From: Roseococcus microcysteis
GTDB lineage: Bacteria; Pseudomonadota; Alphaproteobacteria; Acetobacterales; Acetobacteraceae
Length of the DNA: 64,000 bases
Direction: 5' to 3'
NCBI RefSeq assembly: GCF_014764365.1
Contig: NZ_CP061718.1
Coordinates: forward strand, 1,054,001-1,118,000
A program made the translations under genes and the position numbers. Every line of letters starts with the position of its first letter. Position 1 is the first letter of the stretch. The notes under the pieces were generated by a model. That model had not been told where the DNA came from. It did not search any database and saw only the letters and a list, made by a program, of their open reading frames with translations. Of the stretch, positions 2,113 through 44,864 are shown piece after piece.

Positions 2113-3206
2113 ATGATGCTTCCCGGCCTGTTGGAGGAACCTGGCTGGGCCCTGCGTGCGGTCGGCCTGGTTGCCGTCGGCGTAGCGCTGGGCGCGGGGC
2201 TGGCCTTGGCCTGGACGCGCCCCCAACCCCGGCGCCCCCCTCCTCCCCTGACTATCGTCCCGTCGTTGCGGGCTTCGAAAGCAGCCCGCACGCCTTGGCC
2301 CTGTGGGATGGGCAAGGGCGGCTGCTGCGCTGCAACAGCCGGTATGGCGCGCTCTTCACCGACCCGCCGCCTCCGCCAGGCCCCAAGCCGCAGCCACAGC
2401 CCGATGGGCGCTGGGTGCTGGCCAGTGCGGCGACGTTGCCAGGCGGCTTCCGCCTGGGTCTCTACAGCGAAGTGCCGCCCCCCGCGGCGCCGCCCCCGCC
2501 CGCGGCCGCACCCGTGCCCCTGTCCCCGCCGCCCACGGCACCCTGGCCCAGCGGGCGGCTTCGGCTGCTGGGAGTGGATGATTCGCCCGCCAACCTCTCC
2601 GTCCTGCGCGCGCTGCTCTCCAATACGGGCTTCACGCTGGAGACGGTGACGGATGGCCCCGCGGCGCTGGAGGCCCTCACCGCCGCCGCCGCCAACGGGC
2701 AACCCTTCGACGCCGTGCTGATGGATGTGGTGATGCCGGGCATGGACGGGCTGGAATGCACGCGCCGGATCCGCGCCCTGCCCGGGGCGCTGGGGCAGGT
2801 GCCGGTCATCCCCGTCACCGCCAGCAGCTTCCCCGAGGACATCGCCGCCTGCCACGCGGCCGGCATGACGGGCCATGTACCCAAACCCGTCGAGCGGGTG
2901 GGGCTGATGCGCGGCATCGTCCTCGCCCTCGGCCAGGGCGACCTGCCGGAGGAGGAGGCGCTGCGGCCACTCTTCCGGGGCGAACTCGCCACCCGCCTGC
3001 GCGAGCTGGACGCCGCCCTGGTGGACAACCTGCCCCTGCTTGGCCCCGTCCACGCCATCGCGGGCACTGTGGGCCATCTGGGCGGGGCGGGCTTCGTGGA
3101 AGAGGCCCGTGCCGCCATGCGCGCGCTGCGCGACAACCACCCAGACGCCCGCCGCCAAGTGGCCGAGCTGCTGGACCGCCTGCGCGCGGCCTATCCGGAG
3201 GGGTAG
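2113..3206 (+). CDS. PAS-like/receiver/HPt signalling protein, apparent frameshift
   Basis: Domains in order: one predicted membrane helix (WALRAVGLVAVGVALGAGLALAW, about residues 12-34), a short PAS-like segment (ESSPHALALWDGQGRLLRCNSRYGAL), a Pro-rich linker, a receiver domain with the phospho-acceptor in VLMDVVMPGMDG and a conserved late lysine in PKPVERV, and a C-terminal HPt-like domain whose histidine sits in GPVHAIAGTVGHLGGAG. No HisKA or ATPase domain is present. The membrane helix and the rest lie in different frames; they join into WTRPQPRRPPSSPDYRP if one C is added to the C6 run at 2235-2240. Read as given, the downstream frame stays open back to an ATG at 1995, but that extension looks non-coding. 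Function is inferred as a phosphorelay intermediate. A similar receiver-HPt arrangement occurs at 42064-42819. Confidence 0.75.
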
Positions 3207-3236
3207 GTGGCGTGGGGCTGACCCCGTTCGATTCAG

Positions 3237-3312
3237 TGGGTATTCGGAGGGAGGGGCATGTTGTGCACTGGATCACGCGCGCGCCCGTGACGCCCCTCCC
3301 TCTGAATACCCA
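3237..3312. repeat. Long imperfect palindrome, dispersed repeat copy A
   Basis: Two 21-base arms (3237-3257 and 3292-3312) are inverted repeats matching at 20 of 21 positions and enclose a 34-base centre. Bases 3248-3286 match 63962-64000 at the far end of the window at 32 of 39 positions without gaps, so this belongs to a dispersed family. It lies between the converging ends of the receiver-HPt gene and tspO. No open frame of note lies inside and no clear target-site duplication flanks it. Confidence 0.75.
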
Positions 3313-3358
3313 TTAAGTCAAAAGGGTTCCGAGGGCCTGGGCCCTCGGCGGGAGCGGT

Positions 3359-3383
3359 CCGGGGAGGGCGGCGCCCTCCCCGG
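3359..3383. other. Strong GC hairpin between convergent genes
   Basis: A perfect 11-bp stem, CCGGGGAGGGC (3359-3369) against its complement (3373-3383), with a three-base loop. A smaller hairpin, GAGGGCC/GGCCCTC, lies at about 3331-3346. No T-run follows on either strand, so a classical terminator is not shown; its position between convergent genes suggests a transcript-end structure or REP-like element. Confidence 0.5.
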
Positions 3384-3410
3384 GGCGCCCCCACATCACC
3401 CACCCCCGGC

Positions 3411-3875
3411 TCAGGCCGGGCGGGGACCGTTCAGTCGCCACATGGTGAGGTTCAGGATGCCGGCGAAGCTCACCCAGGCCAGATAGGGCACGAACAGCCA
3501 GGCGGCGGCGGCGCTGATGGGCGCGAACAGGGCAATGCAGACAGCAATGCTCACCCAGAGCGCGCAGAGGTCCCAGAAGGCGAGGTCCGGCCGGCGCATC
3601 CCGAAGAACAGCGCGGACCAGGCGAAGTTCAGCACGAGCTGCACGCCATAGACCGCCAGCGCCAACCCAAACCCCACCTCCCGCCACACCAGCCAGCCGG
3701 CCACGGCGATGCAGCAGAACAACACCCCCCAGGCCGGGCCGAACAGCCAGTTGGGCGGGCGCCACCAGGGCTTGCGCAGCCCCTCATACCAGGCGCCGGG
3801 CGAGAAGATGGCGCCCGAGGCCGCGGTGGCGAAGCAGGCGGCGAAGAAGCCCAGCAGGGGAAGCCAATCGCTCAT
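3411..3875 (-). CDS. tspO: TspO/MBR (translocator protein) family membrane protein
   Basis: A five-helix membrane protein of the TspO/peripheral benzodiazepine receptor family, known to bind porphyrins and, in photosynthetic alphaproteobacteria, to affect tetrapyrrole-linked gene expression. The 154 residues carry the family's landmarks: an early KPWWRPPNWLFGPAWGVLF segment (the WxPP-F-P-W signature), NFAWSALFFGMRRPDLAF in the middle, and VPYLAWVSFAGILNLTMWRLN near the end. Its ATG overlaps the folP stop (ATGA), making it the last gene of the long minus-strand run. The physiological ligand here cannot be read from sequence. Confidence 0.93.
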   Translation of the reverse strand: MSDWLPLLGFFAACFATAASGAIFSPGAWYEGLRKPWWRPPNWLFGPAWGVLFCCIAVAGWLVWREVGFGLALAVYGVQLVLNFAWSALFFGMRRPDLAFWDLCALWVSIAVCIALFAPISAAAAWLFVPYLAWVSFAGILNLTMWRLNGPRPA

Positions 3876-4876
3876 TCGGTCCAGCCCATGGTCACGGCCT
3901 CCTGGATTTTCAGTGCCTCGACGGTGGCGCCCACATCATGCACCCGCAGGATATGGGCCCCGCGCCGCGCCGCCTCCAGGGCCAGGGCGACACTTCCCGC
4001 CACGCGGCGGGAAGGCTCGACCACGCCGGTGATGCGCCCGATGAAACCCTTGCGCGAGGCCCCCACCAGAATGGTGCAGCCCAAGGCGGCCAGAAGCGGC
4101 AGTCGCGCCACGAGGTCCAGATTGTCCCGCACCCGCTTGCCGAAGCCGATGCCGGGGTCCACCGCGATGCGCGCGCGGGGAATCCCCGCCGCCTCGCAGG
4201 CGGCGATGCGGGCGGCCAGATGCGCGGCCACCTCGCGCGCGGCGTCCGTGTAGGCGACGCCCTGCTGCATGGTGCGCGGGTCGAGCGTCCGCATGTGCAT
4301 CAGCACCACCGGGCAGCCGGCGGCGGCGACGGTGGCGAGGCTCTCCGGGTCATGCGCCAGCGCGCTGACATCGTTCACGATGCTGGCCCCGGCGGCGAGT
4401 GCGGCACCCATGGTGGCGGCGTGGCGCGTATCCACGCTGACAGGCCCGCCCGGCGCCAGGGCGGCGATGACCGGCAGGATGCGCGCCTGCTCCTCCTCGG
4501 GTGTCACGGGGGCGGCGCCGGGGCGGGTGCTCTCGCCCCCCACATCCAGGATGTCCGCGCCCTCGGCCCGCAGGGCATGGCCGTGGGCGATGGCGGCCGC
4601 GTGCGCCGCGCGCCCATCCCCCGAAAAGCTGTCCGGCGTGCAGTTGACGATGCCCATGACCAGCGGCCGAAAGCGGTGGCGCGCAAGGCCGGCGAAGGGC
4701 GGCGGCGAGGTGGTCATCGCGGCGGGTGCCGCGGCCAGCGGCAGGGGCGCGCCGGCGTGGTCGCGCAGCCCCGTGAAGGCAAAGGGCCCGCCCTGCAATG
4801 GCAGGGCGAGCCCCTCACGGATCGCCGCCTCCGCCGCCGGCCCGTCGAGCAGGCCGTGCGGCTCGATCAGCGTCAA
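3872..4876 (-). CDS. folP: Dihydropteroate synthase
   Basis: Condenses para-aminobenzoate with hydroxymethyl-dihydropterin diphosphate in folate synthesis; target of sulfonamides. The catalytic TIM barrel starts near residue 70 with VMGIVNCTPDSFSGDGR, followed by DILDVGGESTRPGA, VSVDTRHA, IVNDVSALA, VVLMHMR, IAVDPGIGFGKR and LVGASRKGFIG, all family signatures. The roughly 65-residue N-terminal extension before the barrel is longer than in the E. coli enzyme; similar extensions occur in some alphaproteobacteria. It starts two bases after the ftsH stop, the same ftsH-folP adjacency known from E. coli, and overlaps tspO by four bases. Confidence 0.96.
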   Translation of the reverse strand: MTLIEPHGLLDGPAAEAAIREGLALPLQGGPFAFTGLRDHAGAPLPLAAAPAAMTTSPPPFAGLARHRFRPLVMGIVNCTPDSFSGDGRAAHAAAIAHGHALRAEGADILDVGGESTRPGAAPVTPEEEQARILPVIAALAPGGPVSVDTRHAATMGAALAAGASIVNDVSALAHDPESLATVAAAGCPVVLMHMRTLDPRTMQQGVAYTDAAREVAAHLAARIAACEAAGIPRARIAVDPGIGFGKRVRDNLDLVARLPLLAALGCTILVGASRKGFIGRITGVVEPSRRVAGSVALALEAARRGAHILRVHDVGATVEALKIQEAVTMGWTE

Positions 4877-4878
4877 AC

Positions 4879-6816
<1,938 letters not shown>

Positions 6817-6896
6817 TCCCCTTCACCGGCGACCCTGGCCGGCTCGTCCTAGAGATAGTGTCTACGCCTGGTTCGGAAATGGCCGCCGGGAAAAAC

Positions 6897-8047
6897 TCAA
6901 CCCGCAAGCGGCCCGCCGAGGGGCGTGAAGCGCGCGGCGGACAAGCCCGCGCGCAACGTCTCACGGTAGGGGAGATGGGCGGCCTTGGCCAGCATTGCAT
7001 CCCCCCGCGCAGGACGGGAAGTGCCGCGAGGGCGAGGCTCGGCAAATGGCGGTGGCGGGCGCGCAGCCGTGCCGCCACGGCCGGGCCCAGGGCGGCCACC
7101 TGCGCATCTTCCAGGAAGGGGTCGCGGGGGAGGCGGAACCTCCCATCCCACAACGCGCCGGGCCGGGCCGGGATGGTGTGGGCGGTGGCCTCACGCGCCA
7201 GCCAGCCACCCCGCCAGACGCACCCGCCCAGGCTGCCCTGGCCCGCCACCAGCAGCCGCGCCACGGCGTCGGGGGAAGGCGCGTGCGGCCGCCCACCCAC
7301 CATCCGCACCAGGGCGGCCAGCAGGGCGCGGGCCGTGGCATCCCGGCCCAGGGCCGCGCGGTCGAGGAAGGCACAGCCCTCGGGCAGCAGGCGCAGGCAG
7401 GTCGCGGCGCGCGCCCGCACCGCCGCCTCCTCGCGCGCGCGCCGGGCGGAAAAGGCGGGGGCGGCAGCCAACAGGGCCTCCAGCGCGCCCACCTGCCGCA
7501 GCCGGGCACGGGCGAAGCGGGGGTCGGCATTGGAAGGATCGGTCACCGGACGCAGCCCCGCCGCCGCGCAGGTGGCGGCCAGCCGCGCTGGCGGCACGTC
7601 CAGCAAGGGCCGCAGCAGCAGGGCCTCGGCCGCCACGGAGAGCGGCGCCATGCCCGCGAGCCCACGCGCGCCACTCCCACGAAGGGCACGGAAGGCGATG
7701 GTCTCGGCCTGGTCGCGCGCGTGGTGGCCCAGCAGCAGATGGACGGCGCCGGCCGCGTGGCAGGCCTCCAGCAGCGCCGCCCGCCGCGCGGCCCGGGCGC
7801 GTTCCTGCAAGCCCGCGCCGCCCGGCAAGGACAGCGCCAGCACCCGCGCCGCGATGCCGTGTTCCGCCAGCTGCGCCGCGACGCCGGCCGCCTCGGCGGC
7901 GCTTTCCGGTCGCAGCCCATGGTCCACGATGAAGGCCACCGCCTTCCCGCCAGCCCAGCGATGGGCGAGCCAGGTCAGCGCCAGCGAATCCGGCCCGCCC
8001 GAGCAGGCGATGGCGATGGGAAAGACGAAGGGGCCGAGCGGCGCCAT
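6897..8047 (-). CDS. tilS: tRNA(Ile)-lysidine synthase TilS, apparent frameshift
   Basis: Converts C34 of the CAU-anticodon tRNA-Ile to lysidine so that it reads AUA codons. The PP-loop SGGPDS lies at residues 16-21 from the ATG, followed by IVDHGLR, LLGHHARDQAET and the RPLLD segment. As given, the frame leaves the family sequence after LPVLRGG and would run about 190 codons into ftsH (to 6320). Adding one base to the C6 run at 7001-7006 restores LRGGDAMLAKAAHLPY and a normal ending (TPLGGPLAG) at 6897. Conserved-looking residues (AEPIGAAEFAARM) extend upstream of the ATG, and the only start-like codon there is CTG at 8095, overlapping the cpoB stop. The tRNA substrate is probably the gene at 24221-24294. 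Confidence 0.88.
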
Positions 8048-8091
8048 CCGCGCGGCGAATTCCGCCGCGCCGATGGGCTCGGCCGGGGCCG

Positions 8092-8931
8092 TCAGCGGCA
8101 GCCGGCCCGCTGGCGCGCGGCCGCCGCCTGTTCGGAGAGCGGCGGGCGCAGGTTCGGGAACTGGCTGCGCAAGTCGTTCAGCGTGTCGCAGGCCTCGCGC
8201 CGGCTGTTCAGCGCGGTGAAGGAATTGGCGAGGCCGAGCAGCGCCTCGGGGGCGCGGGGGCCGGTGCGGGCGCGCACATAGGCCTCATTGTAGGCGATGG
8301 CCGCATTGGCGTGGTCACGCCGGCCGGACAACGCCTCGGCCAGCAGCAGCTGCGCCGCCACCTGCTGCGGCGCGGCGCGGCTCGCGATCACCTCGCGCGC
8401 GGCGGCCTCGGCGGTGGCGAAGTCACGACGCGCGAGCGCCGTCTGGCCTTCCTGCAACGCGCGCTCCGGCGTGCGGGGCGGACGGGCGGCCGGCTCGGCC
8501 GCGGCGGGTGCCGGCGCGGAGGGACGGGCGGGTGCGGCCGCCGGCGGGGCCGCGGCGGGCGCGCCCTGCTGGCTGAAGCGGAACTCCATGTCGCCCTGGA
8601 GCTTCTCCAGGTCCTCGCGCAGGCGGGTGTTCTGGTTTTCCAGCACATCGGTGCGGCCGCGCAGGCGGCGCACCTCCTCCTCCAGCACGTTCACCCGGTC
8701 GAGCAGCCGGGCCACGAGATCATTGGCGGAGCCCGTCATGGGCGGGGCCATGGAGGGCCCGGCCATCGGCGGGGCCGCCCCACGGCCACGCAGGGCCTGC
8801 TCCATCTCCTGCCGCAACTGCAGGATCTGGTTTTGCAGCGCGATCCCCTCGCGGCTTTCCATTTGCGCGGCCGCCGGCCCGGCCAGGAGGGTCAACCCCA
8901 GGATGAAGGTGGCGGCCACGCGCATGGTCAT
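8092..8931 (-). CDS. cpoB: Tol-Pal system protein CpoB/YbgF
   Basis: A periplasmic protein that coordinates peptidoglycan synthesis with Tol-driven outer-membrane constriction. The 279 residues show a signal peptide (hydrophobic 5-18, cleavage after AAAQ near 23), a coiled-coil segment (about 70-120, VARLLDRVNVLEEEVRRL onward), an Ala/Pro linker and C-terminal TPR repeats (about 165-265). There is an alternative ATG two codons in. It follows pal by two bases and precedes tilS, the usual end of the tol-pal operon. Confidence 0.92.
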   Translation of the reverse strand: MTMRVAATFILGLTLLAGPAAAQMESREGIALQNQILQLRQEMEQALRGRGAAPPMAGPSMAPPMTGSANDLVARLLDRVNVLEEEVRRLRGRTDVLENQNTRLREDLEKLQGDMEFRFSQQGAPAAAPPAAAPARPSAPAPAAAEPAARPPRTPERALQEGQTALARRDFATAEAAAREVIASRAAPQQVAAQLLLAEALSGRRDHANAAIAYNEAYVRARTGPRAPEALLGLANSFTALNSRREACDTLNDLRSQFPNLRPPLSEQAAAARQRAGCR

Positions 8932-8933
8932 GC

Positions 8934-9413
8934 TCAGCGCACCACGGTCACGGCGCGGCGGTTCTGCGCCCAGGCGTCCTCATTGGAGCCCAGCGCCTCC
9001 GGACGGTCCTTGCCGTAGCTGATGGTCTGGATGCGCGCGGGGGCGACGCCGCCGGCCACCAGCACGTCACGGGCGGAATTGGCGCGGCGCTGGCCGAGCG
9101 CCAGGTTGTACTCGCGCGTGCCGCGCTCGTCCGCATGACCTTCCACGGTCACCTGCACGGCGGCGTTCTGCTGCATCCAGGCCGCCTGGCGGTCCAGCAC
9201 GGTGCGCTGGTCGGCGCGGATGGTGCTGCGGTCGGTGTCGAAGAACACGCGATCGCCCACATTGGCGACGAGATCCTCCTGGCTGCCCGGGCGGATCTGG
9301 CCGGCGCCGCCGGCACCCGCACCGGCCGTCACGGCGGCCTGTTCGGTGTTCGAACAGGCCACCAGAAGGCCGGTGGCGGCCATCAGGGAGAGAAGGGTCT
9401 TGGCGGTGGACAT
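8934..9413 (-). CDS. pal: Peptidoglycan-associated lipoprotein Pal
   Basis: Outer-membrane lipoprotein that binds peptidoglycan and the Tol proteins. I start at the second of two adjacent ATGs (9413), six bases after AGGAG; the first (9416) would leave only three. The 159 residues carry a lipoprotein signal with lipobox LVAC (Cys20) and an OmpA-like domain with the diagnostic VEGHADERGTREYNLALGQRRA segment and conserved NRRAVTVVR ending. A 170-base gap separates it from the tolB stop, large for this run, and contains a hairpin. Confidence 0.96.
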   Translation of the reverse strand: MSTAKTLLSLMAATGLLVACSNTEQAAVTAGAGAGGAGQIRPGSQEDLVANVGDRVFFDTDRSTIRADQRTVLDRQAAWMQQNAAVQVTVEGHADERGTREYNLALGQRRANSARDVLVAGGVAPARIQTISYGKDRPEALGSNEDAWAQNRRAVTVVR

Positions 9414-9452
9414 CATGAACTCCTGTCTAGCAGCGCGGGGCTGCGCCACGCA

Positions 9453-11063: not shown

Positions 11064-12227
11064 TCAGCGCATGCCCACATCGCGCGGGTTGAAGCGGAAC
11101 ACGGCGTCGCGCAGCGCGGCCAGGCGGTCGGGCGGCAGGGGCATGGGGTTGCAGCGCGGGTCCAGCAGGGCGCGGCGGGCGGCCTCGAACACCATGCGGG
11201 CGCGCGGGTCGCTGGGCACCGCGCCATTGGGCGTCACCACGCGCACGATGCCCTGGGCGTCCACCTGCACGCGCAGCTCCACGATGATGTCGCGAAGATT
11301 GGGCGCGCCGGCATCCACCACCCAGCATTCGGCGATGCGGTCGGCGATGCCCGTGCGCTCACCGGCCGTGAGCGGCGCGGAGCCGGTGGGCGCGCCGCCA
11401 CCCCGCTGCGGGGCGCCCTGGGGCGGGCTCGGCCGGGCGCGGGGCGGTTCCTGCTGCTGCTGTTGCTGGCGCAGCCGTTCGAGGGTGTTCAGCACGCTCT
11501 GGCTGCGCTCCTCCGGCCGCGCCACGGGCGGCGTGCGGCCGGTGCCCGGCGTCTGCGCGGGCTGGGGCGGCGGCGGAGTCGGCGGCGGCGGCGTGGGCAG
11601 GGGCGGCGCGGGGGTGGGGCGCGCGGCGGCGGGCGGCGGCGGCGGGGTGGCCGGGCGCGGCGGGGTCGGCGCGGGGGTGGGCGGCGTGGGTTCCGGGCGC
11701 GGCGGCGTGGGCGCGGGCGGGGCCGGCGCGGGCGGCGGCGGCATGGGCAGCGCCTCCGCCACCTGCGCCGGAGCAGGCGCGGGCGTCGGCGGCGTGGGAG
11801 TCGCGGGCGTGGGCGGCGTCGCGGCCGGGGCGGGCGGCGTGGGCGTGGGCGGCGGCGGGGCCGGCAGCGCCACGGTCGGCGCGGGGGGCGTGGGCGCGGG
11901 CGGCGCGGCCGAAGCGGCAGGCGCGGGCGGCGGCGGAGGGGGTGGCGGCGGCGGGCTCGGTGTGGCTTGCGTCACCTCGGGCGCGGGCGGCTCCGGCGTG
12001 GGGGGCTGCGGGACGTTCTGCGGGGGCGCCGGGCTGGGCGCGGGCTCATCGCCCTGCGCCACCTGGGCGGGGGCGATGAGTTCCACCGCGATCGCCGTCT
12101 CACGCGGCTCCTCGAGCCGGCGCGAATCGAACTGGACCAAGGCGAGGCCGAGCAGCGCCAGGTGCAGGGCGAGCGACGCCCCCACCCACAGGCGAAACCG
12201 CCCCTCCTCCGTGGTCCCGAACGGCAT
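11064..12227 (-). CDS. tolA: Energy-transducing protein TolA (Pro-rich form)
   Basis: Couples the TolQR proton motor to Pal/TolB across the periplasm. The 387 residues contain one N-terminal membrane helix (about 14-27, [16 protein letters not shown]), a very long low-complexity region of repeated PxP, PPPP and APxP units (about 58-235), a short Gln/Arg-rich helix, and a C-terminal TonB/TolA-like domain (from about 285) with [11 protein letters not shown] and [16 protein letters not shown]. The central region is proline-rich like TonB rather than the Ala/Lys-rich helix of enterobacterial TolA. Position two bases after tolR and before tolB fixes the identity. Confidence 0.9.
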
Positions 12228-12229
12228 GA

Positions 12230-19990: not shown

Positions 19991-20070
19991 AACTGGTGCG
20001 CCTGCGCAGGAAAGGCGCCAAGACCGGGGCCCCCGCAAAGGCGCCGAAGGCGACTTTGTGGGGAGAACGC

Positions 20071-21788: not shown

Positions 21789-22313
21789 CTACAGCCCGGG
21801 GGGTGGGGCTTCAATGGCAGCCGGGGGCCGGTCCCAGACGCCGTCATGCAGGGCGGCCGCCTCGGGGTCATCTTCCAGCAGGGGGCCGATCACCTCCACG
21901 GGCCGCTGGCCGCTTGCCAGCACCACGCGGCAGGGCAAATCGAGCGTCAGATTGTCGGGGTGCGGGCCGATGATGCGCTTCAGCTTCTCCTCGCTCATCG
22001 CATAGACGAGGCGGCCGATGCCGGCCCAGTAGAGGGAACCCGCGCACATGGCGCAGGGCTCGGCGCTCACATACATGGTGGTTCGCGCCAACTCCTCGGC
22101 GCTGTAGGCGGCGCAGGCGCGGCGGCTCAGCACCGTCTCGGCATGGCCCGTGCGGCCTTCCGTGTCGAAGGCGTTTTCCTGCTCCATCAGCACGCGGCCC
22201 TGTTCGTCCACCAGGGTGGCGCCAAAGGGGTGCTTGCCGTTCGCCCGCGCGCGGCGGGCGACGGTGAAGGCGTGGCGGAGATGGGCGATGTGGTCGGGGT
22301 CCGGCATGGCCAT
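21789..22313 (-). CDS. Nucleoside/guanine-type deaminase (CDA fold)
   Basis: A zinc-dependent deaminase of the cytidine-deaminase-like superfamily, 174 residues from the ATG at 22313. Zinc and proton-shuttle motifs: GRTGHAETVLSRRA (HAE) and SAEPCAMCAGSLYWAGIGRLVYAM (PCxxC). The sequence resembles small-molecule guanine or cytosine deaminases (GuaD/CodA-unrelated) rather than tRNA adenosine deaminase TadA, which is usually shorter and differs after the PCxxC helix; the substrate remains open. It follows the NmrA-like gene by 28 bases on the same strand, so the two may be co-transcribed. Confidence 0.85.
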   Translation of the reverse strand: MAMPDPDHIAHLRHAFTVARRARANGKHPFGATLVDEQGRVLMEQENAFDTEGRTGHAETVLSRRACAAYSAEELARTTMYVSAEPCAMCAGSLYWAGIGRLVYAMSEEKLKRIIGPHPDNLTLDLPCRVVLASGQRPVEVIGPLLEDDPEAAALHDGVWDRPPAAIEAPPPGL

Positions 22314-25127: not shown

Positions 25128-27245
25128 GTGATCACAGCGACGTTGCTGCTGGTCCTCCTGCTGGGCGCAACTTCCATCGCCTATGGCTGGATCACGACCA
25201 AGGAAATCATGGCGAAACCGGCGGGCGATGCCCGCATGCAGGAAATCGCCCGCGCCATCCAGGAAGGCGCCTCCGCCTATCTTCGCCGGCAATACATCAC
25301 CATCGGGGGCGTGGGCGTGGTGCTCATGGCCCTGGTGTGGGTGCTGCTGGGCGGGCCGGTGGCCATCGGCTTCCTGATCGGCGCGCTGCTGTCGGGGGCC
25401 GCGGGCTTCATCGGGATGAACGTCTCGGTGCGCGCCAATGTCCGCACGGCGGAAGCGAGCCGGCTGGGCCTGGCGGCGGGGCTCGACCTCGCCTTCAAGT
25501 CGGGCGCCATCACCGGCATGCTGGTGGCGGGCCTCGCCCTGATGGGGGTCGCGGGCTATTTCTTCATCCTGGTCGTCATCGGCGGGCACGCCATCAATTC
25601 CCGCCTCGTGATCGACAGCCTGGTGGCGCTGGGCTTCGGCGCCAGCCTCATCTCCATCTTCGCGCGGCTGGGCGGCGGCATCTTCACCAAGGGCGCCGAT
25701 GTGGGCGGCGACATGGTGGGCAAGGTCGAGGCCGGCATCCCCGAGGACGACCCCCGCAACCCCGCCACCATCGCCGACAACGTCGGTGACAATGTGGGCG
25801 ACTGCGCGGGCATGGCCGCCGACCTCTTCGAGACCTATGCCGTGACCGCCGTCGCCACCATGGTGCTGGCCGCCATCAGCTTCACCGATGCGGGCCGCGC
25901 CTCGGGCATGCTGTTCCCGCTGGCCATCGGCGCGGTCTGCGTCATCACCTCCATCGTCGGCACCTATTATGTGAAGCTGCCGGCCAACAACTCCATCATG
26001 GGGGCCATGTATCGCGGCCTGATGGTGACGGGGGCGCTGTCGCTGGTCGCGATCCTGCCGCTCGCCTTCATCTTCTTCGGCTTCTCGGGGGTGGAGGCCG
26101 GGGGCCGCACCGTCGGCGCCTTCGGGCTTTGGCTCTGCGCGGCCGTGGGGCTGGCGGTCACCGCCGCCATCGTCTGGGTGACGGAATACTACACGGGCAC
26201 GGGCTTCCGCCCGGTGCGCTCCATCGCCGAGGCCTCGCAGACCGGCCATGGCACCAACGTGATCCGGGGCCTCGCGGTCTCCATGGAGAGCACGGCGCTG
26301 CCCGCGCTCATCATCATCGCGGGCGTCATTTCCACCCACGCGCTGGCGGGCCTCTATGGGATTGCCATCGCCACCACCACCATGCTGGCGCTGGCCGGCA
26401 TGATCGTGGCGCTCGATGCCTTCGGCCCCGTCACCGACAATGCCGGCGGCATCGCGGAAATGGCGGGCCTGCCGGCCGAGACGCGCGTCACCACCGACGC
26501 GCTGGACGCGGTCGGCAACACCACCAAGGCCGTGACGAAGGGCTATGCCATCGGCTCGGCGGGCCTCGGTGCCCTGGTGCTGTTCGCGGCCTACACGCAG
26601 GACCTGAACTACTTCATCGCCCGGCCCGAGGCCTACCCGTACTTCGCGGGCCTGGGGGCGATCGATTTCAGCCTGGCCAACCCCTATGTCGTGGTGGGCC
26701 TGCTGTTCGGCGGCCTGCTGCCCTACCTCTTCGGCGGCATGTCCATGACGGCGGTGGGCCGCGCGGCGCAATCCGTGGTCGAGGAAGTCCGCCGCCAGTT
26801 CCGCGAGAAGCCCGGCATCATGGCCGGCACCGAGAAGCCCGATTACGGCCGGGCGGTGGACATGCTGACCAAATCCGCCATCCGGGAAATGATCCTGCCC
26901 TCGCTGCTGCCGGTGCTCAGCCCCGTGGTGTGTTACTTCGTGGTGCTGATGATCGCGGGGAAGGCCGCGGCCTTCTCGGCGCTGGGGGCGATGCTGCTGG
27001 GCGTCATCGTGACGGGCCTCTTCGTCGCCATCTCGATGACGACGGGCGGCGGCGCCTGGGACAATGCCAAGAAGTACATCGAGGAGGGCCATTACGGCGG
27101 CAAGGGCAGCGATGCCCACAAGGCCGCCGTGACGGGCGACACGGTGGGCGACCCCTACAAGGACACCTCCGGGCCGGCCGTGAACCCGATGATCAAGATC
27201 ACCAACATCGTGGCGCTGCTGCTGCTGGCGATTTTGGCGGCGTAG
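25128..27245 (+). CDS. hppA: Proton-pumping membrane pyrophosphatase (K+-independent type)
   Basis: Couples pyrophosphate hydrolysis to proton export across the inner membrane. 705 residues, about 16 helices. The substrate loop is near residue 190: [13 protein letters not shown] followed by [22 protein letters not shown] second acidic cluster occurs late ([20 protein letters not shown]). The residue that sorts subtypes is lysine in GNTTKA (about 464), the form of K+-independent H+-pumping enzymes; K+-dependent ones have alanine. The GTG start is six bases after GGAGA. Directly divergent from the soluble ppa. Confidence 0.96.
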
Positions 27246-27251
27246 CCGCCT

Positions 27252-27284
27252 CCCCAAGAAATCGCGAAGTGCGATTTCTTGGGG
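27252..27284. terminator. Long hairpin after hppA
   Basis: A perfect 14-bp stem, CCCCAAGAAATCGC (27252-27265) and its complement (27271-27284), with a five-base loop, starting six bases after the hppA stop. There is no T-run, but position and strength suit transcript termination or 3'-end protection. Confidence 0.6.
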
Positions 27285-27321
27285 GCCCCGGTTGGGTGCC
27301 CATCCTGCGCGTTGGGCACCG

Positions 27322-34241: not shown

Positions 34242-34306
34242 GAAGCGCCGGCTATAGCGCGGCGCGCAAGGCGCCGGCAAAAATCCCCGCCTAACACGCT
34301 TGTCAT

Positions 34307-36284: not shown

Positions 36285-37295
36285 ATGGAAACCCTCCCCG
36301 ACGGCGCCTGGCTGCCCATCACCTTCGCGGTGCTGATGGCCGTCGCGATGCTGCTCTACGCCATCCTGGACGGCTATGACCTCGGCGTGGGCGTGCTGCT
36401 GCGCGCCACCGGCGAGGAGGCGCAGCGCGACAGGATGATCGCCTCCATCGGCCCCTTCTGGGACGCGAACGAGACCTGGCTGGTGCTGGGCGTGGGGCTG
36501 CTGCTGGTGGCCTTCCCCGTGGCCCATGGCATGATCCTGACGGCGCTCTACATCCCCGTGGCGCTGATGCTGGCCGGCCTGATCCTGCGCGGGGTGGCCT
36601 TCGAGTTCCGCGCCAAGGCGCCCGAGCCGCAAAAGCCCAAATGGGATGTGGCCTTCCAGCTGGGCTCCATCATGGCCGCCTTCAGCCAGGGCTGGATGCT
36701 GGGCAGCTACATCCTGGGCTTCGACCCCTCCTGGGCCGCCTTCGCCTTCTCGCTGCTGGTGGGGGTCTTCACGGTGGCGGGCTACACGCTGGTCGGCGCC
36801 TGCTGGCTGGTCTGGCGGGCCGAGGGCGAGTTGCAGCTGCGCGCCGCGCGTTGGGCGCGGGGGGCGCTCTATGCCACCTGGGCGGGCGTGCTGGTGGTGA
36901 GTGCCGCGACCCCGCTGGCCTCCCCCCGCATCTTCGAGCGCTGGTTCTCCATGCCCGAGGCGCTGATGCTGGCGCCCATCCCGCTGGCCACCGGCGCGCT
37001 GTTCCTGGTGCTGCACATCTTCCTGCGCCGCTTCCCCCGCGTGGACCACAGCCTGGATTGGGTGCCCTTCGCCGCCACCGCCGCCATCTTCGTGCTGTGC
37101 TTCCAGGGGCTGGCCTATTCCTTCTGGCCCTATGTGGTGCCCGAGCAGGTGACGATCTTCGAGGCGGCCTCGGCACCGGAATCGCTGCTGATCATCCTGT
37201 TCGGCGCGGCGGCGGTGCTGCCGATGATCTTTCTCTACACCTTCTATGTGTGGCGGGTGTTCGGCGGGAAGGCGCGGGACCTCAAGTATTACTGA
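36285..37295 (+). CDS. cioB: Cytochrome bd-type quinol oxidase subunit II (CioB-like)
   Basis: Partner of the preceding subunit. 336 residues with eight helices; WDANETWLVLGVGLLLVAFPVAHG and YDLGVGVLLRATG are family signatures, and GSYILGFDPSWAAFAFSLLVGVF lies mid-protein. No CydX-like small protein is evident in the 93 bases after it. Located five bases after cioA; the GbsR regulator precedes both. Confidence 0.93.
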   Translation: METLPDGAWLPITFAVLMAVAMLLYAILDGYDLGVGVLLRATGEEAQRDRMIASIGPFWDANETWLVLGVGLLLVAFPVAHGMILTALYIPVALMLAGLILRGVAFEFRAKAPEPQKPKWDVAFQLGSIMAAFSQGWMLGSYILGFDPSWAAFAFSLLVGVFTVAGYTLVGACWLVWRAEGELQLRAARWARGALYATWAGVLVVSAATPLASPRIFERWFSMPEALMLAPIPLATGALFLVLHIFLRRFPRVDHSLDWVPFAATAAIFVLCFQGLAYSFWPYVVPEQVTIFEAASAPESLLIILFGAAAVLPMIFLYTFYVWRVFGGKARDLKYY

Positions 37296-37388
37296 GCCCT
37301 CATGGCGCCCGTGGCGGCGGGGGGTTTTCACCGCCCCCCGCCCGGTCCATCTCTTGGGACAATGATTTCCGTCCCTGGAGGACCCCTC

Positions 37389-38369: not shown

Positions 38370-39394
38370 TGCAGGACGAGGATATCGCCTATCTGCTCGA
38401 CAGCCGCGGCGTCTCGCGGGAGCTGGGCGCCTGGGTGGTCGGCATCGCCTTCGGCCGCGAGGGGCGCAGCCTCGCCTTCGGCCTGGGCGATGGCAGCGTC
38501 CACATGACGACCGCCGCCGGCGCCGAATGGCGAAGTGTGGCGGCGCATGAGGGCGCCTGTCTCGACCTCTGCGCCGACATCCGCGAGGGCGTGCTGACAG
38601 GCGGCGATGATGGCCGGCTGATGCAGGTGGCCCCCGACGGCACCGCCACCGAACTCGCCCGCTTCGGCCGGAAATGGGTGGAGCATGTGGCCGCCCATGA
38701 AGGGGGCTTCCGCGCCGCCTCCGTCGCCAAGGCCGTGCATGTGCTGGACGCGAAGGGCGAGGCGGTGAAGTCGCTGGCCCATCCCTCCACCGTGGGCGGG
38801 CTGTGCTTCGACGCCAAGGGCAAGCGCCTCGCCGTCAGCCACTACAACGGCGCCTCCCTCTGGTTCGTGAACGCGAAGGAGGACAAGCCGCGCGTGCTCG
38901 AATGGAAGGGCAGCCACCACGCCATCGCCTTCAGCCCGGACGGCACCCATGTCGTCACCGCCATGCAGGAGATGTCGCTGCATGGCTGGCGCCTCGCCGA
39001 TGGCCAGCACATGCGCATGTCGGGCTACCCCACCAAGACGCACAGCCTCAGCTTCAGCGCCAAGGGGAAGTGGCTCGCCACCAGCGGGGCCGAGGCCGTG
39101 GTGCTCTGGCCCTTCTTCGGCGGCGGGCCCATGGGCAAGGCGCCCACCGAACTCGCCGGCGGCGACCAGGTGATGTGCACGCGCGTGGCCTGCCACCCGC
39201 AGCACGAGATGGTGGCGGCGGGCTTCGAGGACGGGCTGGTGCTTCTGGCCGAGGTCGGTTCGGGCCGGGTGCTGCCGCTGGCCCCGCCCGGGCATGGCGG
39301 CGTCTCGGCATTGGCCTGGAACGCCACCGGGACCCACCTCGCCTTCGGCACGGAGACGGGTTTCGCCGGCTTGATTGACCTCTCCAAGCGCTAG
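38369..39394 (+). CDS. WD40-repeat protein coupled to CobW GTPase
   Basis: 341 residues forming a predicted seven-bladed propeller; repeats are visible as GRSLAFGLGDGSVHM, AFSPDGTHVVTAMQEMSLHGWRL, SFSAKGKWLATSGAEAVVLWPF and AWNATGTHLAFGTETGFAGLI. There is no signal peptide, so it is cytoplasmic. Its start overlaps the CobW stop by one base. A scaffold or client of the metal chaperone is a reasonable inference; catalytic motifs are absent. Confidence 0.85.
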   Translation: MQDEDIAYLLDSRGVSRELGAWVVGIAFGREGRSLAFGLGDGSVHMTTAAGAEWRSVAAHEGACLDLCADIREGVLTGGDDGRLMQVAPDGTATELARFGRKWVEHVAAHEGGFRAASVAKAVHVLDAKGEAVKSLAHPSTVGGLCFDAKGKRLAVSHYNGASLWFVNAKEDKPRVLEWKGSHHAIAFSPDGTHVVTAMQEMSLHGWRLADGQHMRMSGYPTKTHSLSFSAKGKWLATSGAEAVVLWPFFGGGPMGKAPTELAGGDQVMCTRVACHPQHEMVAAGFEDGLVLLAEVGSGRVLPLAPPGHGGVSALAWNATGTHLAFGTETGFAGLIDLSKR

Positions 39395-39454
39395 GATTTC
39401 CCCTCCCCGCCTGATTCGCCGCTGCCGATCACGCGCCACCAGGAGCGACGCCGC

Positions 39455-40285
39455 ATGGGCCAGAGCCCCGTCATCACCACCCCGCACATGTCCATGCCGC
39501 GCCTCGGCCTCGGCACCTGGCCGTTGAAGGGCGCCGAAGGCCAGGCGGCGGTGGAATCCGCACTCGGCCTCGGCTACCGCCATGTGGACACGGCCGAGAT
39601 GTATGGCAACGAAGTGGAGGTGGGGGCCGCGATCCGCGCCAGCGGCGTCGCGCGCGGGGACATCTTCCTCACCACCAAGGTCTGGTTCGACAAGCCCGAC
39701 GGGCCGCGCTTCCGCGAAGCCGCGCTGGCCTGCCTCGACCGCCTCGCCACGCCCTATGTGGACCTGCTGCTGGTCCATTGGCCCTCGCCGCAGCTTAACC
39801 TCCCCTCGGTGCTGGAGGCGCTGGAGGCGCTGCGCCAGGGCGGGCAGGCGCGTGCGGTGGGCGTCTCCAACTTCCCGCCCGGCCTGCTGCGCCAGGCGCT
39901 GAACCTCAAGATCACGCCGCTGGCCTGCCTGCAGGTGGAGCACCATGTCCTGCTGGACCAGTCGGCGCTGCTGGCCATCACCGGCCCGGCCGGCATGGTG
40001 CTGACCAGCTACACGCCTCTGGGCAAGGGAAAGGCCGCGGAAGGGCCTGAGATCGCCTCCATCGCCGCCCGGCATGGGGTGACGCCCGCGCAGGTGGCGC
40101 TGGCCTATCTCCTCGCCAAGGGCGATGTCTCGGCCATTCCCAAGGCGGCCAGCGCCGCGCGCCAGAAGGAGAACCTGGGCGCGCTGGACGTGACGCTCTC
40201 GGCGGCCGACATCGCGGCGCTGGACGCCCTGCCCAAGGGGCGGCGCCTCGTGAACCCCGACTTCGCGCCCGACTGGGCGGCCTAG
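39455..40285 (+). CDS. Aldo/keto reductase
   Basis: 276 residues, TIM-barrel NADPH-dependent reductase resembling 2,5-diketo-D-gluconate reductase. Motifs: GLGYRHVDTAEMYGNEVEVG (Asp and Tyr of the tetrad), LTTKVWF (Lys), YVDLLLVHWPSP (His), and the cofactor-binding IPKAASAARQKENLGAL. The physiological carbonyl substrate is not shown. Its TAG stop is part of a palindromic repeat, and it converges on the FkbM gene. Confidence 0.93.
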   Translation: MGQSPVITTPHMSMPRLGLGTWPLKGAEGQAAVESALGLGYRHVDTAEMYGNEVEVGAAIRASGVARGDIFLTTKVWFDKPDGPRFREAALACLDRLATPYVDLLLVHWPSPQLNLPSVLEALEALRQGGQARAVGVSNFPPGLLRQALNLKITPLACLQVEHHVLLDQSALLAITGPAGMVLTSYTPLGKGKAAEGPEIASIAARHGVTPAQVALAYLLAKGDVSAIPKAASAARQKENLGALDVTLSAADIAALDALPKGRRLVNPDFAPDWAA

Positions 40286-40383
40286 AGCATGCTGCGTTCA
40301 CATGCGTTCACGCAGCCTGCTCTCACCTTTGTTGAGAGCGGGATTCAGCGTTTTCGGTGATTCCACCTCAACGCATCCCGCTC
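40285..40383. repeat. Compound palindromic repeat between convergent genes
   Basis: Two adjacent inverted repeats. First: GAGCATGCTGCGT (40285-40297) against 40310-40322, matching at 12 of 13 positions. Second: GAGCGGGAT (40336-40344) and ATCCCGCTC (40375-40383), perfect, with a 30-base centre. The first arm begins inside the stop codon of the aldo/keto reductase. Elements of this look recur in related genomes as dispersed intergenic palindromes (from memory, unchecked); it may also serve as a two-way terminator. Confidence 0.65.
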
Positions 40384-40390
40384 CAAGGCC

Positions 40391-41542
40391 TCAGACCCAG
40401 CGCTTCACCCAGTCGAGGTCGAAGCACAGCACGATGTCGTCATGCCGACCCGGCGACATCAGGATATCGTGCACCATCTTGCTCCGCGCATGCACGCCCT
40501 CGACGGGGCGCGGGCCGGCCTCGGTGAAGTGCACGACATGCGGGAACCACTTCGCCCATGTCTCGATCACGCGCAGCGGGTTGACGCCGGCGAAGCGCAG
40601 CTGCGTCCAGATGTTCAGCTCCACATAGACGGCCGTGCGCAGGCGCCGCAGGCTCCGGAGACCGCCCTTGATGGCCTGGGTCTCCGAGCCCTCGATGTCC
40701 AGCTTCACGAGGTCCAGGCGCGCCAGAGGCCGCGCGAGTTCGTCCAGCGTCAGCCCCGGGACGACATGCCGCGCGCCGCTGCCCACGCCATTCTCGGCCG
40801 CGGTCACGAAGGCCACCGACGCACTCGCGGGGTCGTGCAGCAGCACCTCGCCCGGGGTGGCCACCAGCGCGGCCTGATGGACCTCGGCGCGCGCCAGCCC
40901 ATTCCGGGCCAAATTGTCCCGCAGAAGGGCACTCAGCCGCGGATTGGGCTCGATGGCGAGCAGCCGGGCGTGGCGCGGCGCGCCGGCCGCCATGGCCAGC
41001 GCGCTCAGCCCCAGATTCGCCCCGCCATCGAGCAGCACCGCGCCCTCGCCGCCATCGGGCAGCAGGGCGCGCGTGAGCCGGACGAGGCGCTGCAGCATGG
41101 CCGCCTCGTTCGGCGCGTTTCGCAGATAGGGGTCGCCCGCGATGCCGCGCACCCAATGCGGCCTGCCATCCACCTCCACCAGCACCGCATCGGGCGGGAC
41201 CTCCGGCAGCGTGTCCCAGCCATGCAGCAGCGCCTCGCGCAGGGTGAGGAAGGGGGGCACGGGCCCCGTCTCCCGGGGCGCCGGCCGTCCATGGCGCAGC
41301 CAGTGCCAGGCATCGAGCGCCTCCGCGTCGGGCGGCACCAAGCTCTCGGGCGCCAGGCCGCGGCCGGCACGGGTCTGGCGGAATTCGGCGCTGTCCATGA
41401 AATGTCGCACCAGCGCTGGCGCATCGCCCAGCGACTGCCATTGCCGAATGACTTCCTTGCTCTCGGCATCACGGCCTAGAATGAGGCGGTAGGCCCAGAT
41501 GACGACATGCGCCGGAAGTTCGGGGCCAGGGGTGGCGGACAT
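40391..41542 (-). CDS. FkbM-family methyltransferase with N-terminal DUF4214-like segment
   Basis: 383 residues from ATG 41542. The N-terminal 50 residues (VIWAYRLILGRDAESKEVIRQW, RHFMDSAEFRQT) resemble the DUF4214-type motif often attached to glycan-modifying enzymes. The C-terminal SAM-dependent methyltransferase has VLLDGGANLGLSALAMA (motif I), LLAIEPNPRLSALLRDNL, and DLVKLDIEGSETQAIKGG, the FkbM signature. The substrate is probably a sugar or polysaccharide O-position (inference). It is isolated from other glycan genes. Confidence 0.88.
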   Translation of the reverse strand: MSATPGPELPAHVVIWAYRLILGRDAESKEVIRQWQSLGDAPALVRHFMDSAEFRQTRAGRGLAPESLVPPDAEALDAWHWLRHGRPAPRETGPVPPFLTLREALLHGWDTLPEVPPDAVLVEVDGRPHWVRGIAGDPYLRNAPNEAAMLQRLVRLTRALLPDGGEGAVLLDGGANLGLSALAMAAGAPRHARLLAIEPNPRLSALLRDNLARNGLARAEVHQAALVATPGEVLLHDPASASVAFVTAAENGVGSGARHVVPGLTLDELARPLARLDLVKLDIEGSETQAIKGGLRSLRRLRTAVYVELNIWTQLRFAGVNPLRVIETWAKWFPHVVHFTEAGPRPVEGVHARSKMVHDILMSPGRHDDIVLCFDLDWVKRWV

Positions 41543-41636
41543 GCACGCCCCCTCCCCGGAGCAACCGGATGCGTGGCCCCATGGGTGGCACACCGGGCGC
41601 ACAAGACGCCCGTAACGCGGACGAGGAAGACTTAGC

Positions 41637-42050
41637 ATGGCAGTCGAAGAGAACGAAGACGGCGAGGTGGACCTGGGCATCAGCCTCGAGGTGGTGGCCA
41701 CGGTGGTGGACCTGGCCCGCGCCGTCCAGGAAGCCGAGGAGGCCGAGGCCGGCCGCGCCGATGACGACGAGGAGCTGGACGACGACCTCGAGGACGAGAT
41801 CACCGAGGAAATGCTGACCGACTACCTCGATGAGCTGAACGAGGAGCAGCAGGTGGCGCTGATCGCGCTGGCCTGGGTGGGCCGCGGCGACCATGAGCCG
41901 GAAGAGTGGAACGAGGCCCTGAAGCTCGCGACCGAGCGCAACGCGGCCGGCTCGGCCAGCGCCTACCTGGCCGGCATGGAAGGCCTGGGCGACCTGCTGG
42001 CCGAGGGCGTGGCCGCCTTCGGGCTCAGCGTGGAGGAAGTGGACCGGTAG
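41637..42050 (+). CDS. DUF3775 domain-containing acidic protein
   Basis: 137 residues, very acidic in the first half (DDDEELDDDLEDEITEEM). The second half, LNEEQQVALIALAWVGRGDHEPEEWNEALKLA then AAGSASAYLAGMEGLGDLLAEGVAAFG, matches the DUF3775 pattern seen widely in alphaproteobacteria. No function is established and no catalytic residues are apparent. Divergent from the FkbM gene and convergent on the sensor kinase block. Confidence 0.85.
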   Translation: MAVEENEDGEVDLGISLEVVATVVDLARAVQEAEEAEAGRADDDEELDDDLEDEITEEMLTDYLDELNEEQQVALIALAWVGRGDHEPEEWNEALKLATERNAAGSASAYLAGMEGLGDLLAEGVAAFGLSVEEVDR

Positions 42051-42063
42051 CGTCCGGCCCGCC

Positions 42064-42819
42064 CTACTTCGCCACCGCGGAAGGCCCCAGCGCCTTCTCC
42101 AGCGCGGCGCGCAGCCGCGGCAACTCGGCGCGCAGGGCGGGACGCAGCCCGGCCAGGACGGCGGGGGCGGCCTCGCCCTCGCGCAGGCGGCGCTGGGCGG
42201 CTTCCAGCGCCGCGATCACGGGCCGGTCGCCCAGGCTGGCGGCGGCGCCCTGGCCGCGATGGATGAGCGCGTTCAGGATCTGGCCCGACACGCCCGGCAC
42301 CTCCAGCGCGGCCGCCACCTCGTCCAGTTCGTCCATGAAGCCGTGCAGCAGGGGAAGCGCCGCCTCGCCCAGCTCGGCGCGCAGCGCGGCCACGGGGTCG
42401 GGCGGGACGGCCTCGGCGGGCGGGGCCTCGGGCCCGGCGGTGATGCGCGCGAGCAACGCCAGCAGCACCGCCCGGTCCACGGGCTTGGCCACATGCGTGT
42501 CCATGCCCGCGGCGCGGCATTCCGCGATCTCCTCCGGCAAGGCCGAGGCCGTCACCGCGATCACGGGCAGGCGGGCCTCGGGCCCCGGCAGGGCGCGCAG
42601 GCGCCGCGTGGCCTCCAGCCCGTCCATGCCGGGCATCCGCACATCCATCAGCACCGCGTCGAAAGGCTGGGACTGGACGGCGGCCAGCGCCTCGGCACCA
42701 TCCGTCACCACCGTCACCTCATGGCCGGCCGCGCCCAGCAGGGCGCGCATCAGCAGGCGGTTGGGCGCGATGTCGTCCGCCACCAGAAGGCGCAGCGGCC
42801 GCACCGCGCCGCCGGCCAT
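42064..42819 (-). CDS. Receiver-HPt module, probable C-terminal part of hybrid kinase
   Basis: 251 residues if read from its own ATG. Receiver domain with acidic pocket VADD (13-16), phospho-acceptor Asp59 in VLMDVRMPGMDG and Lys in HVAKPVDR; then a helical HPt-like domain with ILNALIHRGQGAAASLGD. It overlaps the end of the upstream kinase in another frame. Adding one base to the G6 run (plus strand 42842-42847) joins the two as ...TPPREPAQPGMAGGAVRPLRLL, a natural HisKA-ATPase-receiver-HPt hybrid. I think the separate gene is an artefact or a recent break. Confidence 0.8.
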   Translation of the reverse strand: MAGGAVRPLRLLVADDIAPNRLLMRALLGAAGHEVTVVTDGAEALAAVQSQPFDAVLMDVRMPGMDGLEATRRLRALPGPEARLPVIAVTASALPEEIAECRAAGMDTHVAKPVDRAVLLALLARITAGPEAPPAEAVPPDPVAALRAELGEAALPLLHGFMDELDEVAAALEVPGVSGQILNALIHRGQGAAASLGDRPVIAALEAAQRRLREGEAAPAVLAGLRPALRAELPRLRAALEKALGPSAVAK

Positions 42820-44864
42820 GCCCGGCTGCGCCGGCTCGCGCGGGGGGTCGCCTCGGCGAGCGGCACCTCCACCCAGAACATCGCCCCCTGGCCTGGTTCA
42901 CTCTCCACGCCGATCCTCCCCTGCATGAGCGCCACCAGCCGCGCGGTGATGGCAAGGCCGAGGCCCGTTCCCGGGCTCTCGGGATCGCCCAGCTCACCCA
43001 GCTGGGTGAAGTCCTGGAACAGCAGATGGCGCTTCTCACGCGGCACGCCCGGGCCGCTGTCCTGCACCTCGACGCGGATGCCGCCCGAGATGGGGCGCAC
43101 CCGCAGCTCCACCCGCCCGCCCACGGGGGTGAACTTCACCGCGTTGGACAGCAGGTTCAGGATCATCTGCCGCAGCCGGGTCGCATCTCCCAGCACGCCC
43201 GCCGGCAGGTCCGGGTCGGCCACCATGCGCAGCGTGATCTGCTTGCGCCGCGCATCCGGGCTGAGGAAGCCCAGGCACCCCTCCAGGAGCGGCGTGAGCG
43301 CGAGCGGCGCCTGTTCCAGCTCCAGCTTGCCGGCATTGATCTTGGCGAGGTCCAGCAACCCGTTCACCAGCTCCCGCACATGGGACCCCGCCTCGTGCAG
43401 CAGGCGCAGCTGCTCGTAATGGGCGGGCGTCATGGTGCGGTCCGACAGCAACAGCCCGGCGAAGCCCAGGATGGCGTTCAGCGGCGTGCGGAGCTCATGC
43501 GACATGCGGGCCAGGAACATGCTCTTGGCCTCGGCCGCGGCCTCGACCTCGCGCACGGCCTCCTTCAGCGCGGTGATGTCGGTGCGGATGCCCACCGTGC
43601 CGCCATCGGGGGTGGGGCGTTCCGTGATCAGGATCCACCGGCCATCGGGCAGCAGCCGCTCGATCGGCGCGCCGCCCGAGCGGCGCCAGACCTTCAGCTC
43701 GGCGATGAAGCCGTCCACGTCGCCCTCGAACTGCGGGTACTGCCCGTTGGCGATGCCGCCGCGAATGATGTCGTCGAAGAAGGCGCCCTCCTCGATGAAG
43801 GGCGCGCTCTCGGCGTAGAATTCACGGTAGCGCTGGTTGCAGATGACCAGGCGGTCCTCGGCGTCGAACATGACGAAGCCGTCGGTCATGCTCTCCAGCG
43901 CGTTCTCCAGCGTGCGGCGCCAGCGCAGGCGCTCCTCGTCCACGCGCGCGCGCTGGCGCAGCGCCACCAGCATGGCGGCCACCACCGCCAGCACCAGCAG
44001 CGTCAGCGCCGTCGCCACCACCGCCGCACGGTCGCGCTGGACCCGCCACGCGGCGAGCGCCACATCGCGGTCGAGCGAAACACTGATGGCGAGCGAAGGG
44101 TAGAGCGTGGGCCGTTCGACCCCGATCACCGCCGTGCCGTCGAAGCGCGAGACGCTGACCAGCCCCTGCCCCGCGGCGCGGTCCAGGCGCTGGCCCATGC
44201 GCGTCTCATCGGGCGGCAGGGTGGCCAGCAAGGTGCCGTCGCGCATCTCGAGGCTGACGCGCAGCCCCTCGGGCTCCCCGCCCGCGCCCAGCAGGCCGGT
44301 GACGACGGCGACCGGCATCTCCGCCACGGCCATCATCGCCCCCAGGCCCTGGATGTTGACGTTCCGCGCGAAGAAGAGAGACCATTCGCCCGTGCCCGGG
44401 TTCCGCACCGGCCCGGCCAGTTGCAGCCCCGCCCCCGGAAGCCCCGCGGGGCGAAGGTCCCGCGTCAGGTCTATGGGCAGGGCGCGGCGGCGCGAGACGG
44501 TCAGGCCCGAGACCTCCGGCCCGCCTGGCCCCACCAGCAGGATGTCGCGGACGGTCAGGTTCTGGTTGTTCAGCTCCCGTAGCAGCCGCCCCGCCGCGGC
44601 GCGGTCGAAGCTGCCCCCGGGCCCCCAGCCTTCGAAGGGGCCAAGCAGCGTGGGCAGGCCGAGCAGGAGGCTGTCCACCTGCAGGAAGGCGCGGTTCATC
44701 GTCGCCTCGACCGAGCGCGCCACGCGGGTCACGGTCTCCTCGGCGTTGTCGAGCGCGCTGCGATGCGCACGCTCGGTCAGCAGCAGGTTGGCCGCGATCT
44801 GGGCCAGCAGGATGATGAGGCCCGCCGCGACCACCGCGGCGCGCAGAAGGCGGCCGGTCTGCAT
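42750..44864 (-). CDS. Membrane sensor histidine kinase (dCache-PAS-HisKA-HATPase)
   Basis: Domains: helix 1 (about 8-28), periplasmic Cache-like sensor (about 30-275, including ERAHRSALDNAEETVTRVARSVEATM), helix 2 (about 280-303), PAS with FVMFDAEDRLVICNQRYREFYAE, HisKA with His about 456 in MSHELRTPLNAILGFAG, and HATPase_c with NLLSNAVKFTP (N box), DSGPGVP (G1) and GTGLGLAI (G2). After FWVEVPLAEATP the frame becomes Arg-rich and non-homologous, ending inside the receiver module at 42750; the true C-terminus is probably 42064 after correcting one base. It starts immediately after the binding protein stop, so binding protein and kinase are one operon. Confidence 0.9.
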   Translation of the reverse strand: MQTGRLLRAAVVAAGLIILLAQIAANLLLTERAHRSALDNAEETVTRVARSVEATMNRAFLQVDSLLLGLPTLLGPFEGWGPGGSFDRAAAGRLLRELNNQNLTVRDILLVGPGGPEVSGLTVSRRRALPIDLTRDLRPAGLPGAGLQLAGPVRNPGTGEWSLFFARNVNIQGLGAMMAVAEMPVAVVTGLLGAGGEPEGLRVSLEMRDGTLLATLPPDETRMGQRLDRAAGQGLVSVSRFDGTAVIGVERPTLYPSLAISVSLDRDVALAAWRVQRDRAAVVATALTLLVLAVVAAMLVALRQRARVDEERLRWRRTLENALESMTDGFVMFDAEDRLVICNQRYREFYAESAPFIEEGAFFDDIIRGGIANGQYPQFEGDVDGFIAELKVWRRSGGAPIERLLPDGRWILITERPTPDGGTVGIRTDITALKEAVREVEAAAEAKSMFLARMSHELRTPLNAILGFAGLLLSDRTMTPAHYEQLRLLHEAGSHVRELVNGLLDLAKINAGKLELEQAPLALTPLLEGCLGFLSPDARRKQITLRMVADPDLPAGVLGDATRLRQMILNLLSNAVKFTPVGGRVELRVRPISGGIRVEVQDSGPGVPREKRHLLFQDFTQLGELGDPESPGTGLGLAITARLVALMQGRIGVESEPGQGAMFWVEVPLAEATPRASRRSRAWPAARCGRCAFWWRTTSRPTAC

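Follow-up and report, generated by a model that had tools for sequence, protein, structure and literature searches.

Reading-frame breaks at G/C homopolymer runs in the Roseococcus microcysteis assembly most likely reflect under-called bases

The stretch of Roseococcus microcysteis DNA analysed here, hereafter the window, comprises 64,000 nt (positions 1054001-1118000 of a genome of 4,208,010 bases assembled as a single contig) and carries three genes whose reading frames change at a run of six C or G: a gene for a receiver-domain protein, tilS, and a gene for a hybrid histidine kinase (Table 1). Our comparison with R. suduntuyensis DSM 19979 and R. thiosulfatophilus RB-3, the nearest relatives among the genomes compared, suggests that all three are most likely intact in the living cell, and that the assembly very probably shortens by one base some of the G/C runs whose true length is at least six. 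Mean identity over aligned DNA is 93.6% between R. microcysteis and R. suduntuyensis, 93.1% between R. microcysteis and R. thiosulfatophilus, and 92.0% between the two relatives.

Table 1. Homopolymer runs and interrupted genes in the window (window coordinates)
Feature	Position	Strand	Remarks
C6 run, frame change in receiver-domain gene	2235-2240	+	One base shorter than in both relatives
Receiver-domain gene, split at 2235-2240	2113-3206	+	N-terminal part read as in ORF 2113-2649, C-terminal part as in ORF 1995-3206; Pfam Response_reg only
C6 run (G6 on the gene strand) in tilS	7001-7006	-	One base shorter than the C7 of both relatives
tilS	6897-8047	-	One copy seen; last ~35 codons lost through the frame change; 3' fragment at 6897-6995
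G6 run (on the + strand) in hybrid kinase gene	42842-42847	-	One base shorter than in both relatives
Hybrid histidine kinase gene	42067-44864	-	Two frames meeting at the run; 933 codons, a single frame in both relatives
G5 run, fourth frame break	21823-21827	-	Near the 3' end of the deaminase gene 21789-22313; window frame passes the relatives' stop
C5 run, fifth frame break	58402-58406	-	3' end of the dienelactone hydrolase gene 58310-59062; both relatives stop at ...ARHLGG
G8 run, contrast case	60000-60007	+	In register with both relatives; R. suduntuyensis has G6-T-G, not eight G

The alignment of the window to R. suduntuyensis contains one single-base gap at each of the three sites, the window being the shorter sequence every time. 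In R. thiosulfatophilus, too, each of these sites has one additional base: two of them carry seven C or G, and at 2235, where R. suduntuyensis has C7, the sequence is not a single run. The original prediction, made from the letters of the window, had placed the three hexameric runs, had proposed that one added base repairs each gene, and had called for a comparison of orthologues in close relatives; that comparison bears out both statements. The 933-residue kinase of R. suduntuyensis matches the window in one frame over residues 1-674 and in the next over residues 674-933, with the junction inside the G6 run. TilS of both relatives continues in frame for about 35 residues to ...GGPLAG, a frame that the window drops at the C6 run; a TilS search of the R. 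microcysteis genome gave a single match, and the true start of the gene may lie upstream of the limit of its open reading frame. For the receiver-domain gene, tblastn gave a match in the downstream frame alone, which covers residues 27-363 of 366 and passes over the break at about residue 40; the N-terminal ~40 codons are therefore placed by the DNA alignment and by ORF 2113-2649. Of the PAS-receiver-HPt architecture assigned to this protein, Pfam recovered the receiver domain, and neither PAS nor HPt at an E-value of 0.001.

Runs of six or more together with one flanking base make up 0.47% of the window, and the probability that three breaks placed at random would all land in this fraction is about 1e-7. 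Among the 37 G/C runs of six or more in the window, 30 are in register with R. suduntuyensis and three are the sites described above; two could not be aligned, and two (32436 and 58390) lie inside gapped stretches. The effect is thus not universal, as the original prediction had noted from its in-frame run of eight G, which is indeed in register with both relatives. Two further frame breaks, which it had missed, lie at runs of five, so that a break at exactly six bases describes the three sites and is not a rule. The fourth break affects a gene that Pfam assigns to the cytidine/deoxycytidylate-type deaminases; its products end in ...PPGCH and ...PPGSH in the relatives, and the window continues reading. 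The fifth affects a gene that Pfam assigns to the dienelactone hydrolases; R. thiosulfatophilus has seven G there on the gene strand and R. suduntuyensis seven C on the other strand, and the window also carries a substitution adjoining the run.

To see whether the deficit is systematic, we aligned 464 kb of R. microcysteis (the window and 200 kb on each side; 71% G+C) to R. suduntuyensis over 438,583 bases, and three distant samples, A (2.2 Mb), B (3.4 Mb) and C (0.4 Mb), over a further 136,351 bases, about 575 kb in all. Coding frame changes in this DNA comprise 26 of net -1 and 2 of net +1 (sign test, p 3e-6). Near the window, 19 net -1 changes and one net +1 change lie inside R. suduntuyensis genes, out of 25 clusters of which the other five are multi-base; in the distant samples there are seven net -1 changes (three in B, four in C) and one net +1 change. 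These counts omit the multi-base clusters (net +5, -8, +53, -59 and -25) and any break lying no more than 24 bases from a gene end; the fourth and fifth breaks of the window are for that reason absent from the 26. For each of the 19 near-window losses, a run of five to seven G or C in R. microcysteis lies no more than 12 bases away, and when their alignments were read by eye, 17 of the gaps lay in or touched the run and two lay within two bases of it. In the distant samples, six of the seven gaps lie in or touch a G/C run of five or more, giving 25 of 26 overall (23 in or touching such a run, two within two bases); R. microcysteis runs of this kind occupy 2.1% of bases. By simple scaling, 26 changes in 575 kb correspond to about 190 frameshifts across the genome.

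The genes interrupted near the window are of many kinds. Of the 19, 18 were named through the intact R. suduntuyensis proteins and the kinase through the window itself. YidC, TilS, PurD, a PBP1A-family protein and a Na+/H+ antiporter score above NCBIfam cut-offs; LpxI, OmpH-like, TctC, TauE and DUF6311 proteins were recognized by Pfam; an MsbA-like ABC transporter, a TonB-dependent receptor, a glycosyltransferase and others fall below NCBIfam cut-offs; and one of the affected proteins had no family match. In the stretch at contig positions 1052493-1053634, just upstream of the window in which yidC ends, this gene is split at a five-base C run at window coordinate about -1131; the N-terminal YidC model aligns to two separate segments that differ in frame, and a second copy was not found in the genome. 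The sole strong PurD match begins at model position 10, which is consistent with a break at the first codons. In the 19 genes, third codon positions account for 541 of 715 substitutions relative to R. suduntuyensis after the breaks and for 414 of 554 before them; the bias is unchanged, and the stretches beyond the breaks were therefore translated until very recently or still are. Both mutS and mutL have open frames as in the relatives and score above the curated cut-off.

We then resolved the deficit by run length, using only G/C runs with matching flanks in both genomes and leaving out those whose flanks differ. Relative to R. suduntuyensis, R. microcysteis is one base shorter in 2/583 conserved runs of five, in 10/132 runs of six (longer in one) and in 11/30 runs of seven; over runs of five or more it is one base shorter in 23 and longer in three, the shortened runs appearing in the assembly as runs of five, six and seven. 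The chance of shortening rises with run length, and the systematic under-call of C7 envisaged in the original prediction stands as a systematic under-call but not as one specific to C7, since runs of true length six and up are affected. The two relatives, which have diverged further from each other than R. suduntuyensis has from R. microcysteis, served as a control pair: they show one-base differences in 0/72 runs, being equal in 58/59 sixes and 13/13 sevens, and the single exception is a three-base difference. The excess in R. microcysteis over this control is significant for sixes and sevens together (Fisher p 0.0004) and for sevens alone (p 0.019). Against R. thiosulfatophilus, R. microcysteis is one base shorter in 6/15 sevens and 2/67 sixes, and in the eight differing G/C runs that could be compared in all three species it is the short one in five, the long one in one and not the odd one in two. 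A/T runs are shortened in 1/19 cases at length five and in 0/5 at six or seven, numbers too small to judge.

We observe directly a one-base deficit relative to both relatives that depends on length and, at runs of five or more, goes one way; it occurs at several places in the genome, inside and outside coding sequence, and in core genes of which a single copy was seen. Our best reading of these data is a systematic under-calling of G/C homopolymers that would amount to roughly 190 false frameshifts genome-wide. We propose that the consensus sequence gives certain G/C runs one base short when their true length is at least six, with a chance that grows with length, and that a gene containing an under-called run would then appear frameshifted; the cause would be a base-calling or consensus step, probably on long reads that were not fully polished. 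A viable cell would not be expected to lack YidC and TilS, and for this reason, and because one-base gains are nearly absent, mutS and mutL are open and the third-position bias is kept, we favour an artefact. The indels in homopolymers, the bias towards deletion and the rise in rate with run length found here are those of long-read homopolymer error. According to one account (PMC12007338), long-read errors are predominantly short homopolymer-associated indels, and in its main example the indel errors are mostly false deletions with A/T runs commonest; according to another (PMC8011154), what polishing tools leave behind is chiefly indels in homopolymers, with shifted reading frames as the result. 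Our sites resemble those described in the two papers in being mostly single-base losses that split genes left unbroken in relatives, but differ from the main example of the former in lying nearly all at G/C, A/T runs being too few for comparison in a genome of 71% G+C.

Several observations weigh against under-calling as a complete account. The effect is incomplete: 121/132 sixes and 19/30 sevens equal R. suduntuyensis, and its penetrance is therefore partial. At runs of three and four in the 464 kb around the window the direction reverses (R. microcysteis one base longer in five, shorter in none), so that base loss is a feature of longer runs. Real slippage would depend on length too. Sample A contains no net -1 change, one net -1 change elsewhere lies away from any G/C run, and two changes are gains. 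The counts rest on our own gene calls, made from a codon-usage map that gave 455 genes in 464 kb of R. microcysteis and 451 in 480 kb of R. suduntuyensis, near-equal numbers from which fragmentation is barely visible. Some breaks lie a few codons at most from the start or end of a gene (purD, lpxI, the deaminase, the hydrolase), where a real change could be tolerated. Finally, sixes and sevens are shortened in 8/32 non-coding against 13/130 coding cases (p 0.037), and both shortened fives are non-coding, a pattern expected if real deletions were partly purged by selection. Equal shortening in the two classes is compatible with the data near the window alone (coding against non-coding, 6/83 vs 3/22 and 5/20 vs 2/4; p 0.39 and 0.55) and was no longer supported once the distant samples were added, which slightly lowers our confidence in under-calling. 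As non-coding runs are more often shortened, some of their losses may be real, and we read the pattern as under-calling everywhere, to which some genuine change in length has been added in the DNA between genes; coding runs alone still exceed the control (13/130 vs 0/72, p 0.005).

A lineage, or a sequenced culture, acting as a slippage mutator that had recently lost single bases at many G/C runs would show the same length dependence and the same specificity to R. microcysteis; selection would leave the non-coding excess just described, and the unchanged third-position bias would be compatible with very recent breaks. We consider this very improbable, because a cell with some 190 broken genes, single-copy tilS and yidC among them, is not expected to be viable, because the loss of mutS or mutL that might mark a mismatch-repair mutator was not found, both genes being open, and because nearly all changes are losses, whereas slippage produces length changes of both signs. 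There is likewise only a slight chance that the runs are truly shorter in the cell through a genome-wide, mostly one-directional contraction of G/C runs, with the tilS and yidC breaks tolerated or suppressed by efficient slippage during expression; were the runs real, this would amount to a startling genome-wide suppression of frame. That under-calling accounts for most sites while one of the three genes is a real pseudogene or simply starts later also seems quite unlikely. The receiver-domain gene, broken near its N-terminus, would be the most plausible candidate, as its N-terminal frame has no Pfam family match and no protein alignment of its own was obtained for the part upstream of the break; the gene nevertheless fits the common pattern, one base short of the C7 of R. 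suduntuyensis and of R. thiosulfatophilus.

Slipped-strand phase variation, known from simple contingency loci in which homopolymers change the frame, resembles the present case in its frame changes at homopolymers, and two of the three genes encode signalling proteins, as might be expected of switchable tracts assembled in the off state. Runs of six to seven are, however, short for such a switch; the relatives show no one-base difference among their sixes and sevens; the changes are nearly all losses; and, among the named near-window genes, they are not confined to dispensable surface or regulatory functions, falling in many unrelated genes without a common theme, core genes included. The original prediction had ranked phase variation behind sequencing error, and we agree, finding it scarcely credible. 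A minimal probability also attaches to programmed ribosomal frameshifting or transcriptional slippage that would restore the full proteins at the runs. The downstream frames are conserved, as such a mechanism would have it, but the kinase gene and tilS are each in a single frame in both relatives, with no shift site conserved there; the sites share no feature that we noticed besides being G/C runs; and non-coding runs are shortened as well.

The comparisons also revealed differences and elements apart from these runs. No counterpart of window region 50961-52653 (~1.7 kb), which holds a SnoaL-like gene and one for a metallo-beta-lactamase-fold protein, occurs at the corresponding place in the compared stretches of either relative. 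Conversely, extra DNA is present at window 34242-34280 in R. suduntuyensis (about 3.6 kb) and R. thiosulfatophilus (about 4.7 kb), and at 37295-37314 in R. suduntuyensis (about 2.5 kb). Short palindromic-looking intergenic elements lie at 20020-20070 and 27228-27290, and both relatives are longer by 37 bases at 27265. A G/C-rich repetitive stretch within a gene (11640-11790) has many gaps in its alignment to R. suduntuyensis. Elsewhere in the R. microcysteis genome, at about 3.41 Mb (L114:10941-11336), there are short elements of ~105 bases belonging to a dispersed repeat family; of the 43 further matches listed in R. suduntuyensis, 36 map to this stretch.

In conclusion, the original interpretation identified the right kind of cause, with a scope that proved too small: the effect extends to several parts of the genome and acts with partial penetrance. 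Length-resolved rates of run shortening, with relatives as the control, provide a simple check that could be applied to other single-contig assemblies of high G+C bacteria. As the assembly very probably under-calls some of its longer G/C runs (true length six and up), frame breaks in it are no safe guide to biology. Anyone working with this genome should refrain from treating the three genes, or an estimated 190 more, as pseudogenes and from drawing biological conclusions from split genes, and the three-gene pattern in R. microcysteis is most likely not a biological feature.

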